Of a stretch of DNA of 64,000 bases, positions 4,239 through 61,972 are shown piece after piece (the first letter of the stretch is position 1; each line of letters starts with the position of its first letter). The notes below the pieces were generated by a model. That model saw only the letters and a list, made by a program, of their open reading frames with translations. It did not search any database and was not told the DNA's origin. The DNA is from Ketobacter alkanivorans. GTDB taxonomy: Bacteria; Pseudomonadota; Gammaproteobacteria; Pseudomonadales; Ketobacteraceae. Location: the NCBI RefSeq assembly GCF_002863865.1, contig NZ_CP022684.1, positions 1,046,931 to 1,110,930 of the forward strand, given 5' to 3'. Made by a program: the position numbers and the translations under genes.

Positions 4239-5009
4239 TTACACCGGGTACACATCAAACCGGCTGCTCTTACCCAGCAGCTGGTAGCCCGGTTTACGCC
4301 CCGCCACACTATCGGCCTTGCGTGGGCGCTTCACTACCACACGCTTACGAGCAACCTCCAGAGCAATCTCCATCAATGCGTCAGCGTCCATATCATCCCC
4401 CACCACATCTCGAAACAGGCGCATTTCCTTTTTTACCAACGCGTGCTTGGTGCGTTCAGGGAACATTGGATCCAGATACACCACATCTGGCCGCTCTGAC
4501 TCTGCAAGCTGTGCCAAAATTGAATGCGCGACACCCCACTGAAGTTGAATCCGCTCCGCCACTGCTGCACCCTCTGGTGAGTAGCGGGCTCGATCCAAGC
4601 CGTCGGCCAAAAGACAGGCAATTGCCGGATGGCGCTCTATTGCAGTAACCGCAAATCCTGCGGCCGCCAGAATAAAGCTATCACGACCCAGCCCGGCAGT
4701 GGCGTCCATTACGCGCAGCGGATCCTTGCTGCGCCCGGCCACTGCTTTCACGATCATTTCATGCTGCGCCCGCATAAAACGAAAGCCTGTTTTGCCGTGA
4801 ATAAAATCCACTGTCACCGGGTTTCCCAGCTCCTTGTCCAGCGGCCGCAACTGAACCACACCATCACGCCATTCCAGCACGGCTTTCAACCCTGCTTGAT
4901 CCTGCCCCTGGCTGGACCAATGGCCATCCAAACACGCCAACGGCAGGTGAAGTTGACGGACACGATCACGAAAGTCAGGCTGATCGACAGCAATCCAGGT
5001 AGCGCTCAC
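4239..5009 (-). CDS. rsmJ: 16S rRNA m2G1516 methyltransferase RsmJ
   Basis: SAM-dependent methyltransferase that modifies guanosine 1516 of 16S rRNA (the YhiQ family). It has 256 residues. The SAM-binding motif DATAGLGRDSFILA lies near residues 120-133 and the family signature YLDPMFPERTKHALVKKEM near 190-210, followed by a basic C-terminus (KRVVVKRPRKAD). The start is GTG at 5009; no better ATG lies upstream. Its stop faces the plsB stop 27 bases away, so the two genes converge with no obvious terminator between them. Confidence 0.93.
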   Translation of the reverse strand: MSATWIAVDQPDFRDRVRQLHLPLACLDGHWSSQGQDQAGLKAVLEWRDGVVQLRPLDKELGNPVTVDFIHGKTGFRFMRAQHEMIVKAVAGRSKDPLRVMDATAGLGRDSFILAAAGFAVTAIERHPAIACLLADGLDRARYSPEGAAVAERIQLQWGVAHSILAQLAESERPDVVYLDPMFPERTKHALVKKEMRLFRDVVGDDMDADALMEIALEVARKRVVVKRPRKADSVAGRKPGYQLLGKSSRFDVYPV

Positions 5010-7643: not shown

Positions 7644-9566
7644 TCAAAATGGATCTCTACCAATGCCCATTTTCAGCAGAAAAGCATCCACCTCCTGCAG
7701 CGATTCCGCCAAAGGCATAGGGGGCAGCGAGGATAAGAACCGTGGGCCGTATGATTTCTTCAGAATCCGGGTATCTCCCAGCACCACCAAACCTTCATCC
7801 TCGGTTGAGCGCAGCAGCCGCCCCACCCCCTGCCGCAGTCGGGTGATGGCATTGGGCACCATGTAATCATTAAACAGTGAAAGTTGCTCCTGACTGGCTT
7901 TGTAGCGCCACGCCAGACTGAGCACATCATCGGGGGAAGCAAACGGCAATTTATCGATGGCCACGCAGCGTAAGGCGGCACCACTGACGTCGATCCCCTC
8001 CCAGAAACTGCCCGTGGCCAATAACAAGCTACTGCTGTCTTGACGGAACTGTTGCAACAATTTATGGCGATTACTGTCCGGCTCGTAAATCAGCAATGTG
8101 CGGTCGGTGCGGCCCTGCAGAATCTGCGCCGTCTGCTGCAATGCTTCGTGACTGGAAAACAACAGCAACATGCCACCGTCCAAACGATCGGCTACCATCA
8201 ACAACGTGTCTGACCAGGCCTGATAGAAGTCCTCATCTGCTGGCAGGGGCAGGTTCGTTGGAACCCAGAGTAAAGACCGATTAGAGTAATCCATCGCGGA
8301 TTGGTGATGATGCGTTTCAACATCAGTTAGCGACAGACAACGCTTAAAGTAATCAAAGCTGCTATCAACCATCAAGGTTGCAGAAATAAAGATCCAGGCA
8401 GCAGAATCGGTATTCAGGCTCACAAACGGATTATGCAGGCGAGCCGCCACGATTCGTAGTTGGCTTTGATCTACATCACAGTACAGAACCGCCTTATCAT
8501 CGCAAGCCTGCTGGAACATACTGATCCATTGCTGCAACTGTTTGATTTCTTTTTCTACGTCAACCGCAGCAAGATGCAGTGCAGCCAGCTGGGCCTGTAG
8601 CTGTAGCAATATTCCCTGCAGCGGTTTAAAACTGGTTGGTGCCACTGACTGAACACTGTCTGCCCCGCCTTTTTGCAACAATTGCTGACGGATTTGCCCC
8701 CACAACTGCTCCAGTCGCAATAACAGCGTGCCAAGATCGGCGAACAAGCCTGAATGCTCGGCACTACATCGACGAACCCGTTTCAACCAACGTTGGAATC
8801 CGTACTCCTCCATGGTTTCGGTATTACGGCGCACCAGCAGATCCGGTAACTGGTGGGCCTCATCAACGATGACCACATCCACCGCAGGCAGCAATGCTCC
8901 CATTCCCTTTTCAAACAGCCCCTGATCACTCAGAAGCAGCGTGTGGTTAATCAATAAGACATCAGCGTTTGCTGCTCGCTGGCGTGCTTTCTGGAAATAG
9001 CAGTTATCAAAATGTGGACAACGACGCCCCACGCATTGATCCGCACTGAGGGTTAACAGGGGCCGCAATTGAGAAATCTGTTCGCCCGTTACCGGCAGAG
9101 TCTGAATTTCACCATGACGGGTCTGCATCTTCCACGCCATGAGTTCAGACCATATGGAATGCACCAGCGCTGCCGCACCTGGTGCGGCCTTTCCATTCTG
9201 AATTTGCTCAAATCGGTAATGGCAAAAGTAGTTATCACACCCTTTCAACACAGATAACTGGCGCAATTCAGGTAACACCGCACGCAGTTTCTGATATTCA
9301 CCCAACAGTAAGTGATCCTGTAATGTCAGGTTTCCCACTGACAATATAATGCGCCGACTGGACAGTAGCGCTGGCAGCAAATAGGACAGCGTTTTACCGG
9401 TGCCGGTGGGTGCTTCCAGCGCTAGGGATTTACCGGCAATCACCCCCTGCTCAACCTCAAGTGCCAGCCTGATCTGTTCTGGTCGCACCCCATAGCCAGG
9501 CCAGTGCTGAGCCAATAAGCCGGTCGGAGATAAACATTCTTCCACTCTGGATATCTGGGGATGCAT
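7644..9566 (-). CDS. yoaA: ATP-dependent Fe-S DNA helicase, YoaA/DinG family
   Basis: XPD-like 5'-3' superfamily 2 helicase acting in DNA repair; the E. coli homologue YoaA works with the polymerase III chi subunit. I start at ATG 9566 (640 aa, MHPQISRVEE). A longer reading would run into mobA's start and add residues unlike the family. Walker A is APTGTGKT near residue 52. The Fe-S cluster cysteines are visible as GCDNYFC followed by CVGRRCPHFDNC. The DEAH box is VDEAHQLPDL, and helicase motif VI is RLRQGVGRLLR near the C-terminus. All four cluster-type cysteines are intact. Confidence 0.92.
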   Translation of the reverse strand: MHPQISRVEECLSPTGLLAQHWPGYGVRPEQIRLALEVEQGVIAGKSLALEAPTGTGKTLSYLLPALLSSRRIILSVGNLTLQDHLLLGEYQKLRAVLPELRQLSVLKGCDNYFCHYRFEQIQNGKAAPGAAALVHSIWSELMAWKMQTRHGEIQTLPVTGEQISQLRPLLTLSADQCVGRRCPHFDNCYFQKARQRAANADVLLINHTLLLSDQGLFEKGMGALLPAVDVVIVDEAHQLPDLLVRRNTETMEEYGFQRWLKRVRRCSAEHSGLFADLGTLLLRLEQLWGQIRQQLLQKGGADSVQSVAPTSFKPLQGILLQLQAQLAALHLAAVDVEKEIKQLQQWISMFQQACDDKAVLYCDVDQSQLRIVAARLHNPFVSLNTDSAAWIFISATLMVDSSFDYFKRCLSLTDVETHHHQSAMDYSNRSLLWVPTNLPLPADEDFYQAWSDTLLMVADRLDGGMLLLFSSHEALQQTAQILQGRTDRTLLIYEPDSNRHKLLQQFRQDSSSLLLATGSFWEGIDVSGAALRCVAIDKLPFASPDDVLSLAWRYKASQEQLSLFNDYMVPNAITRLRQGVGRLLRSTEDEGLVVLGDTRILKKSYGPRFLSSLPPMPLAESLQEVDAFLLKMGIGRDPF

Positions 9567-44299: not shown

Positions 44300-44592
44300 A
44301 TAAGACTCCAGATTTTAATGGGTTAAGCCTCCATGAACCCCATGAATCAACCTTTGAACATTGGCAACCAAGGCCTTGGAACAAAGGCACCCTGACTCAC
44401 GTGACGGTGCATGTGTGGATTACGGTTTTATTTGAGCGGCGCTTTATACCACAAAGCACCCACCACAACAACCAATTAGCGACGAACCAGGGCATAAATC
44501 CCCCACCCATCAGGGGTATATCCTGGCCGTAAGCCCATGTACAATACCCTGCTTTGCCCAGCCCCAGCGGATTCTAAGCGGTTTCCATATTC
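44300..44592. promoter_or_regulatory. Divergent region: rpsB leader and map upstream region
   Basis: 293 bases between rpsB (leftward) and map (rightward). From the predicted rpsB start point (about 44436) to the rpsB ATG there are about 135 bases of leader with pairing potential, including the palindrome CCAAGGCCTTGG (near 44369-44380). S2 represses its own operon through the rpsB leader in enterobacteria, so a similar element is plausible here, but I cannot align it by eye. On the plus strand TACAAT (about 44539) is a possible -10 for map. Confidence 0.5.
44443..44471 (-). promoter_or_regulatory. Predicted sigma-70 promoter of rpsB
   Basis: On the minus strand TTGTTG (44466-44471) and TATAAA (44443-44448) are separated by exactly 17 bases, with TG upstream of the -10 (TGTGGTATAAA), an extended -10 form. 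Confidence 0.7.
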
Positions 44593-59521: not shown

Positions 59522-59557
59522 AATAAAAAGGGCTCCGCAAAGGGAGCCCTTTTTATT
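59522..59557. terminator. Bidirectional intrinsic terminator, merR / PF10118 gene
   Basis: A perfect 15-bp inverted repeat (AATAAAAAGGGCTCC / GGAGCCCTTTTTATT) with a 6-base loop, between two convergent gene stops. A/T-runs on both sides let it work both ways. Confidence 0.94.
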
Positions 59558-59571
59558 AATGTCACCAGTTA

Positions 59572-60447
59572 TCACGCGGCCGCAGAATTGCTCTGAGGAA
59601 CCAGCTGAGCCTGCTCCGCAAAACCATCTACCAGACGCATCAATTCTTCAGCTTCGTCCAACAAATGGATATTGTTGATGTCCCATGGGTGGAAACCAGG
59701 CTTAAAGAATCGTAGCCAGTCACCAATCAAGGAAGGGAACACGCCACGCTTGCCAAACTGGTAACGGAATGACTTCCTCCAACCGGCCATATTAGTGTGC
59801 TCACCACGGCTCTTCATTACGCGATAATAGTAACGATAGAACAGGCTCCAGAAAATCACATTGGCCGCGACAAACACTGTCGATCGCAACGCATAGGCAC
59901 CTGGGCCTTTACCCACCACCTCTTCGTACACATCATAAGCCACGCCTTTGTGCTCGGTTTCTTCCATGGCGTGCCATTTCCACAGGGCTTCATAATGTGG
60001 ATCAGAGTTCTTGATGAAGCGATCATCTTCCATAACGATATCAGCCAGCATGGCCGTAAGGTGCTCAAGAGCAACCGTAACCGCCAATTGAACAGGACGC
60101 GGCATCACTTTCTGAACAAACGCCAACAGCTTCTCTACGCTGGCTTCCATTTGATCAGTTGGAATACCGGCCTCAACCATGGCCTCGTTGTATTCTTCAT
60201 GTTCACGAGTATGGAACGCTTCCTGGCCAATAAAAGCAGAAACCGCTTTTTTCAGCTCTTTGTCCACCACGTCTTTACGGTAGTTACGTACGCTTTGGAT
60301 AAAAAAGCGCTCACCGGCTGGAAAGAATATCGAGAGGGTGTTCAAAAATTGGGTCCAATGAGGACCAGCGCCATTCCAGTCGTCGATTTTTTCTTTGGGC
60401 AAATGGAACTGAAGATTGCGGCGTACAGGAAGAATCGCAGCTGTCAT
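59572..60447 (-). CDS. Ferritin-like metal-dependent hydrolase, PF10118 family
   Basis: 291 residues, a predicted metal-dependent hydrolase with a ferritin-like helical bundle. Di-metal ligand motifs are visible: E76-x2-H79 and H83 in GQEAFHTREHEEYN, E128-H129 in VALEHLTA, and E163-x2-H166 in HAMEETEHKG, all in the expected order. A hydrophobic stretch (about 188-207) suggests membrane association. Function is unknown; relatives are common near lipid and PHA genes in hydrocarbon-using gammaproteobacteria. The start ATG 60447 has the site AGAGGG six bases upstream, which lies inside a strong potential hairpin (see 60455-60519). Confidence 0.85.
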   Translation of the reverse strand: MTAAILPVRRNLQFHLPKEKIDDWNGAGPHWTQFLNTLSIFFPAGERFFIQSVRNYRKDVVDKELKKAVSAFIGQEAFHTREHEEYNEAMVEAGIPTDQMEASVEKLLAFVQKVMPRPVQLAVTVALEHLTAMLADIVMEDDRFIKNSDPHYEALWKWHAMEETEHKGVAYDVYEEVVGKGPGAYALRSTVFVAANVIFWSLFYRYYYRVMKSRGEHTNMAGWRKSFRYQFGKRGVFPSLIGDWLRFFKPGFHPWDINNIHLLDEAEELMRLVDGFAEQAQLVPQSNSAAA

Positions 60448-60660
60448 AGGTTTCCCTCTGTGTCATTGTTTTATGTTACATCACTGAATGTAATATAAAA
60501 CAATGACGGCGTACAGAGGTTTTAACAGATATTAATGTAACATTATTCGATGTTATTGATGGTTATATATAACACAACTTAAACCTGTTTACATCTAGCT
60601 CAAATTATAGACAAACATGTCTCGAGATCAAATTTCAACCTAACCTACATAGCCTACAAT
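60448..60660 (-). promoter_or_regulatory. Upstream region of PF10118 gene with repeated ATGTTACAT
   Basis: The 9-mer ATGTTACAT (60473-60481) recurs in inverted form as ATGTAACAT (60535-60543), with near copies at 60488 (ATGTAATAT) and 60550 (ATGTTATTG). The AT-rich palindrome GTTATATATAAC (60562-60573) and a minus-strand TATAAT (about 60604-60609) are promoter candidates. Together it resembles an operator array. Confidence 0.6.
60455..60519 (-). repeat. Long inverted repeat overlapping the ribosome binding site
   Basis: Arm 60455-60481 (27 bases) pairs with 60488-60507 plus 60513-60519: 26 of 27 positions match, the far arm has a 5-base bulge (60508-60512), and the central loop is six bases (CACTGA on the plus strand). 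As minus-strand RNA the outer stem contains CAGAGG, most of the AGAGGG ribosome binding site of the PF10118 gene. Confidence 0.9.
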
Positions 60661-61737
60661 TCATACGGAGCGTTCACTCAGCCATTGTGCCGTCTGCGGC
60701 CAAGCCTCTGCCGGAGCGTGACTGCCGCTGAGAATACCGGTATGCCCTCCCTGACAACGAATAAAGGCTTTATCGGCGCTGCCCACCAGTTCCATCACCG
60801 GCTTACAACAGTGCTCGTTCGCCAGTTTATCGTTGCTGCCAGCCAGTGCCAGCAGGTTGGCCTTCACATCCTGCAGATACACCCGCTCCCGCCCCAGCGT
60901 CATATAACCTCGCGCTGCCTCATTCTCCAGCCAGATGCTGTACATCCAATCACGGATCACACCACCGGGATAGGCTTCCAGGTTGTCCATAAACGCACTT
61001 TGGTTCGCGTGCTGAATCACAAACTCACGATCATCCAGGTTACGAACCAAATCCACGTAGCCCTGCACACTGCTCACCGGATCGGATAATTTGAAACCAA
61101 TAGCGTTAATCCAGGCTGGCGCATAGGCCGCACTGGCGGGCACTTTACGGAAATTAATACCGACGCTTTTCAGGGCACGATTCAAGGCTGCATACTGACG
61201 ACCAATCTGACCGTTGGCATGGCCATCCACTGCAGTGCCCACTGTGACGATATTGCGTATCGCTGCATCCTTGCTGTAAGCCTGATAACACAGGCCGAAG
61301 CCACCCCCCATGCTCCAGCCATGCAAAGACAGATCCTGTTTTCCGCTGTGTTCACGCACCTGGGCGATAAACTCGGGCATCAGCTTGGTAATGTAGGTTG
61401 CCAGCGTGTACTTAGCGTGTTTACGGCTAGGGCTGCCCCAGTCAATCAGGTACAGATCAAACCCCTGCTGCATGAAGTACTTCACCAGGCTACGATCAGG
61501 AAACCAATCATAAATCAGCATATTGATTGCCAAGGGGGGAACAATCACCAAAGGTACCGCATGCTTGACTGGCGGCATCCCCACACGGCGGTAATGCCTC
61601 AGCTTCACCAGACCATTGTCATGGATGACGTCAAATGGCGTCTTGCCCGCAGTGATAAGGGTATGTGGTCGAAGTATCCGCTCCCCCGCGTTGGATAGAA
61701 CGGTTTTCACACGACTGGAATTGATTCGCTTCAACAT
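60661..61737 (-). CDS. PhaC-like alpha/beta hydrolase with Ser nucleophile
   Basis: 358 residues, resembling class III PHA synthase catalytic subunits in length and pattern: VPPLAINMLIYDWFPDRSLV near 66-85, a lipase-type box HGWSMGGGFG near 139-148, LLALAGSNDKLANEHC near 295-310 and QGGHTGILSGSHAP near 329-342. The triad is Ser142, Asp303, His332. True PHA synthases have Cys in the box (GxCxG), so this is more likely a hydrolase (for example a PHA or other polyester/ester depolymerase-like enzyme) or a divergent synthase. No phasin, phaE or phaR gene is adjacent. The PF10118 gene lies downstream on the same strand, 213 bases away. Confidence 0.85.
   Translation of the reverse strand: MLKRINSSRVKTVLSNAGERILRPHTLITAGKTPFDVIHDNGLVKLRHYRRVGMPPVKHAVPLVIVPPLAINMLIYDWFPDRSLVKYFMQQGFDLYLIDWGSPSRKHAKYTLATYITKLMPEFIAQVREHSGKQDLSLHGWSMGGGFGLCYQAYSKDAAIRNIVTVGTAVDGHANGQIGRQYAALNRALKSVGINFRKVPASAAYAPAWINAIGFKLSDPVSSVQGYVDLVRNLDDREFVIQHANQSAFMDNLEAYPGGVIRDWMYSIWLENEAARGYMTLGRERVYLQDVKANLLALAGSNDKLANEHCCKPVMELVGSADKAFIRCQGGHTGILSGSHAPAEAWPQTAQWLSERSV

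Positions 61738-61887: not shown

Positions 61888-61972
<85 letters not shown>

Follow-up and report, generated by a model that had tools for sequence, protein, structure and literature searches.

The gene for a predicted metal-dependent hydrolase of family PF10118 in Ketobacter alkanivorans is preceded by a long imperfect palindrome. It lies within the stretch of DNA analysed here (the window, 64,000 nucleotides), and its RNA copy could fold into a hairpin that buries the ribosome binding site of the gene. The question raised by this locus is whether the palindrome acts in RNA, as a switch on translation, or in DNA, as a site for a protein. Comparison of related genomes argues for the protein: the palindrome is very probably a two-site transcription-factor operator belonging to a regulon that extends through the order. 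The fuller explanation, in which this pair of TGTnACA sites is read, most likely, by the MerR-family protein encoded next door, appears likely as a whole. It would provide an order-wide and testable regulator-operator assignment for PF10118, an enzyme family of unknown function.

The hairpin has the geometry that was first described for it. Its arms (60455-60481 and 60488-60519) flank a six-base loop (60482-60487), the second arm carries a five-base bulge (60508-60512), and 26 of the 27 arm positions form 7, 13 and 6 Watson-Crick pairs, leaving one A.C mismatch. The outer stem joins CCTCTGT to ACAGAGG, and 20 positions with the single mismatch flank the loop inside the bulge. In an energy model one further G-U pair forms, which shortens the loop to four bases. 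The AGAGGG ribosome binding site ends six bases ahead of the ATG at 60447 (minus strand), as originally noted. Folding of the leader, which the original prediction had called for, gives a minimum free energy of -33.1 kcal/mol, compared with -15.65 +/- 2.84 for dinucleotide shuffles (z -6.14); none of 200 such shuffles matches the stability of the hairpin. The features of the locus are collected in Table 1.

Table 1. Positions in the window of the genes, predicted operator sites and hairpin elements at the PF10118 locus.
Feature	Positions	Strand	Remarks
MerR-family regulator gene, 281 aa	58671..59516	+	Convergent neighbour, candidate binder
PF10118 predicted metal-dependent hydrolase gene, 291 aa	59572..60447	-	Pfam Metal_hydrol, E 2.3e-84
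Ribosome-binding site AGAGGG	60454..60459	-	
Long imperfect palindrome whose RNA copy could cover the ribosome site	60455..60519	-	
Degenerate third unit TGACACA (minus strand), 5/6 positions	60459..60465	.	One 15-bp step from site B
Predicted operator site B, TGTnACA-N8-TGTnACA, 11/12 positions	60474..60495	.	Hairpin apex; kept in 8/8 orthologues
Arm able to pair with ribosome site, CCTCTGT on minus strand	60513..60519	-	
Predicted operator site A	60536..60557	.	62 bp upstream of site B; window units 6/6 and 4/6
PHA-synthase-like hydrolase gene	60661-61737	-	Same strand, upstream of PF10118 gene

A paired motif upstream of PF10118 genes

The orthologue set consists of the window and seven further genomes of the family, with protein identities of 63-89% (n=8). 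Their leaders retain one block with almost no change: TTTATATTACA followed by a loop that varies and by TGTAACAT. By its letters this site is an inverted repeat, built from two TGTnACA units that are set 8 bp apart and are each palindromic. A second copy (site A) is perfect in two of the orthologous leaders, where both units have six of six positions (L009 and L010). Sites A and B are separated by 61-62 bp in all eight orthologues, and much of the intervening DNA is variable. The third unit next to site B has 4 or 5 of its 6 positions across the same eight leaders. The operator would be composed of pairs of 7-bp palindromic TGTnACA units with 8-bp spacing and a 15-bp step.

The motif is not confined to the orthologues. 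Up to 330 bp was scanned ahead of 72 other close homologues (70 non-orthologous matches at E <= 1e-80 and two, L060 and L135, slightly above this threshold) and of 38 distant paralogues, which were hand-picked from a longer match list at roughly 30-41% identity. Sites with at least 11 of 12 positions occur in 8/8 orthologues, in 45 of the 72 close homologues across the order and in none of the 38 paralogues, compared with ~0.1% of shuffles that preserve base composition only. With at least 10 of 12 positions the counts are 57/72 and 3/38 (shuffles ~1%). This leaves 27 close homologues without a site at the stricter level and 15 at the looser one. When the spacing between units was varied from 0 to 21, only 8 stood out (45/72), the next best value being found in 6/72. 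The motif core also lies at differing distances from the start codons of these other genes. Occurrence ahead of one gene group, with fixed spacing and a varying distance to the ATG, points to a DNA site bound by a protein rather than to an RNA fold over a ribosome binding site. This supports the second option of the original prediction, a large DNA operator, since the motif at the centre of the palindrome keeps a fixed spacing and recurs before homologous genes across the order.

Pooling the 45 sites, 43 of which are distinct, yields the consensus AATGTnACAT-N6-ATGTnACAT. An additional unit, offset by 15 bp on one side, has a frequency of 0.105, compared with 0.014 per other offset; it accompanies just 7 of the 43 sites. 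Exact motifs number 16 in 15 genomes of the family (8 for the reversed pattern) and 17 in 20 genomes of the order (6 for the reversed pattern), or 33 and 14 in all 35, the 20 genomes being hand-picked and all among those with a close PF10118 gene. Nineteen of the 33 exact sites precede a PF10118 match by 20-147 bp, and one precedes the MerR gene by 158 bp. Five more are situated 34-43 bp upstream of relatives of a TetR-family gene considered below, and the remaining eight are elsewhere. With up to three mismatches allowed, the motif is not enriched in the window's genome (93 sites, and 148 for the reversed pattern), and weight is therefore given to near-exact sites only. We found no description of the motif or its regulon in the open-licence literature, a body that misses most subscription papers.

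A looser copy, TTGTTACA-N8-TGTAAGAT, is located between genes at 1622-1645 of the window, with two mismatches to ATGTnACA-N8-TGTnACAT. From a reading of its protein, the downstream gene resembles the glycerol-3-phosphate acyltransferase gene plsB.

Long arms around the core

If the core is an operator, the hairpin may be described as site B copied into RNA, with arms that in K. alkanivorans have grown until they reach the ribosome binding site. The arms then require an account of their own. There is about an even chance that they arose by accidental growth of the palindrome around the operator and have no function of their own, a reading that concerns the arms only and is compatible with the operator. 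Template-switch repair of imperfect palindromes is one possible route for such growth. Long arms of differing sequence are present at a few sites (the window, L008, L102 and L099) and are absent at the sites of near relatives (L035 and L037, and L097 when set against L102). However, in the window and in L008 the arms pair perfectly along 13-14 positions and differ in two pairs, a pattern that selection could also give. From its sequences, the distribution of long arms looks more like sporadic palindrome growth than selection. In the L102 case, near position 4816, the arms are extended by 12 further complementary bases, while the L097 site near 8818, which belongs to a related gene, has no extension.

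Candidate regulators

A total of 390 genomes of the order were examined for proteins that accompany PF10118. A close PF10118 gene (E <= 1e-80) is present in 51 of them, and 50 of these 51 have the MerR-family protein (E <= 1e-40), compared with 7 of the other 339 (Fisher p ~3e-54, a value that ignores kinship among species). The nearest PF10118 copy is no more than 10 kb from merR in 38 of these 50 genomes, where the copy nearest merR was used, if seen, for genomes with several. The exception, G014, contains motif sites and yields no MerR match. The helix-turn-helix of the MerR protein is strongly conserved among the 15 proteins compared, as is the motif. On these comparative grounds the window's MerR-family protein is the best candidate for reading sites A and B, and is probably their reader.

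Other tests bear on the limits of this pairing. In the seven genomes that have the MerR protein and lack a close PF10118 gene, the motif is not clearly in excess (16 sites and 11 for the control, at no more than one mismatch). Autoregulation of merR through the motif was considered and set aside: only one of 12 loci has a motif pair with at least 11 of 12 positions within 350 bp upstream of merR, and two of 12 do within 450 bp. No sigma70-like promoter is common to the eight leaders, and no promoter with the 19-20 bp spacer typical of classical MerR activators stands out at site B.

Several MerR-type regulators bind sites that resemble those described here. PmlR2, a LitR class II repressor of Pseudomonas mendocina, recognizes a pair of TGTACA-N12-TGTACA sites; the first overlaps the -35 element, and the other follows the transcript start and precedes the ATG (PMC9758184). 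The likeness lies in a MerR-type protein and two palindromic sites of the TGT..ACA type, and sites A and B would fit this two-site layout. PmlR2 differs in its motif (N12 and TGTACA rather than N8 and TGTnACA) and controls light-response genes with a LOV protein as effector (PMC9758184). The Ketobacter units depart from the LitR/PplR pattern T(G/A)TACA-N12-TGTA(C/T)A, as they carry an extra central base and a spacing of 8, and no LitR-type C-terminal domain was found by Pfam in the window's MerR protein.

GlnR and TnrA, of the MerR superfamily, share TGTNA half-sites in an inverted repeat, TGTNA-N7-TNACA, but differ in their N7 spacing, nitrogen regulon and Gram-positive hosts (PMC4959772). 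Only TGTnACA-N8-TGTnACA is enriched in our scans, and 12 bp separate its outer TGTnA from its outer TnACA. The best match by sequence of the MerR profile to a solved structure is GlnR chain 7tea_B (E 1.1e-6), and this match covers the helix-turn-helix only.

We infer the following mechanism, with PmlR2 as the guide to its sign. A transcription factor, most likely the window's MerR-family protein, would bind sites A and B, which are about six helical turns apart. A factor of this type would repress the PF10118 gene until a signal releases the repression.

Two further attempts to characterize the MerR protein were abandoned. A second helix-turn-helix, proposed as a match for the 15-bp array, gave an hhalign E of 0.04, compared with 0.08 for a control pair, and a structure prediction from six sequences was discarded (mean pLDDT 46.5). 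Residues 122-205, which follow the helix-turn-helix, faintly resemble a second copy (hhalign E 0.04, not significant).

A different protein could also bind the same operator. At another locus in the window's genome (L046), a TetR-family repressor is encoded beside SDR and ferritin-like genes, and TetR dimers fit palindromic sites such as these. The sole exact motif copy in the window's genome sits between these TetR and SDR genes. The exact sites upstream of TetR relatives mentioned above would place the site in the promoter of a cognate tetR, and TetR relatives occur in 25 of the 51 genomes with a close PF10118 gene, compared with 2 of the 339 without. Nevertheless, such relatives are absent from 26 of the 51 genomes at E <= 1e-30, with the L046 protein as the only query. 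These 26 include four further genomes of the genus to which the window belongs (G001-G004), of which at least three, including G002, keep site B. We consider it unlikely that this repressor is the protein that binds the operator.

The L046 locus holds a near-perfect operator copy between its TetR and SDR genes (1501-1524, G000:C1:4711054-4711077) that is conserved in G005, G009 and G011. The SDR gene there is followed by the ferritin-like gene and a flavin-monooxygenase-like gene. Near close PF10118 members generally, flavin-monooxygenase-like genes are found in 9 and SDR-like genes in 8 of 22 compared regions, which were partly selected around the TetR gene.

The RNA copy of the palindrome

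The operator reading leaves room for effects of the palindrome in RNA. If transcription enters from upstream or by read-through, the hairpin would form in K. alkanivorans and should lower translation. A precedent is the lac operator, which, when transcribed from upstream, folds over the lacZ ribosome binding site. The likeness is that of a DNA operator whose upstream-initiated transcript folds over a ribosome site; the operator and the repressor are different ones. Hiding of the ribosome site in K. alkanivorans is possibly a side effect of the operator palindrome, and this effect may have a use as insulation against read-through.

A more elaborate proposal is that the palindrome has dual use. 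Site B would be a DNA operator, and full-length RNA copies, made from a distant promoter or when transcription continues out of the PHA-synthase-like gene, would close the ribosome site. Efficient translation would then be limited to transcripts that begin inside the hairpin or beyond it. The window's best promoter-like site, TTGATC-16-TATAAT, would start transcription near 60597, and one such site is present in the region, compared with 1.6 in shuffles. No terminator-like site was found on the minus strand between the PHA-synthase-like gene and the PF10118 gene. We regard this dual use as quite unlikely.

The first option of the original prediction was a new cis-regulatory RNA. On this reading the leader hairpin blocks translation until it is opened by a ligand, a protein, temperature or processing. 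The fold is very stable and covers the ribosome site, and in 7 of 8 leaders the highest-scoring promoter-like site comes before the hairpin, at positions that do not align across the leaders and, in the window, do not exceed chance. Across the orthologues, 81.5% of cells in the hairpin structure pair, compared with 33-52% when one side is slid. Four inner pairs of the ribosome-site helix form in 6-8 of the eight leaders and its three outer pairs in 2-6, one of the seven forming in just two. Changes on both sides are found in 2 of the 27 hairpin pairs, both within the inner helix.

The compensatory changes that were proposed as a check are, however, absent from the ribosome-site stem, where none of the seven pairs has changes on both sides. 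Of 500 partner shuffles, 156 reach the observed covariation score, 28 the number of paired cells and 16 the number of double-change cells. The RNAalifold consensus drops the outer stem and retains only the 13-pair operator core. The A.C mismatch in this core is retained in 8/8 orthologues, a feature that pairing by itself would not require, and ahead of other genes the core lies at different distances from the ATG. A search of Rfam at gathering scores returned no family at the hairpin.

The predicted probability that the ribosome site is paired ranges over 0.46-1.00 in the eight leaders, with 1.00 in the window, 0.98 in L006 and 0.97 in L005. Shuffled leaders match or exceed the observed values in 0% of cases for the window, 3% for L005, 8% for L006, 10% and 11% for L009 and L010, and 26-56% for the other three. 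Because only the window beats all of its shuffled leaders, the complete hairpin over the ribosome site characterizes the window's species; weaker versions occur in some relatives. The claim of a new regulatory RNA therefore finds no support in the comparison, given the ribosome-site arm without double changes, the consensus fold and the shuffles, and such an RNA is highly improbable. The case illustrates how an operator close to a start codon may be mistaken for a regulatory RNA, and it supplies a test that separates the two. A mobile or repeated element was rejected, as the leader recurs nowhere else in the single 4.91-Mb contig of the window's genome at E <= 0.001, the sole other match being the palindrome against itself.

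Other structured elements occur in the window. A perfect 15-bp inverted repeat with A/T tracts (59522-59557) is located between the convergent MerR and PF10118 genes and looks like a shared bidirectional terminator for both. Matches to Rfam at gathering scores include a t44 RNA (72 bits, 44322-44435) and a tRNA (54.3 bits, 61891-61972), both on the minus strand.
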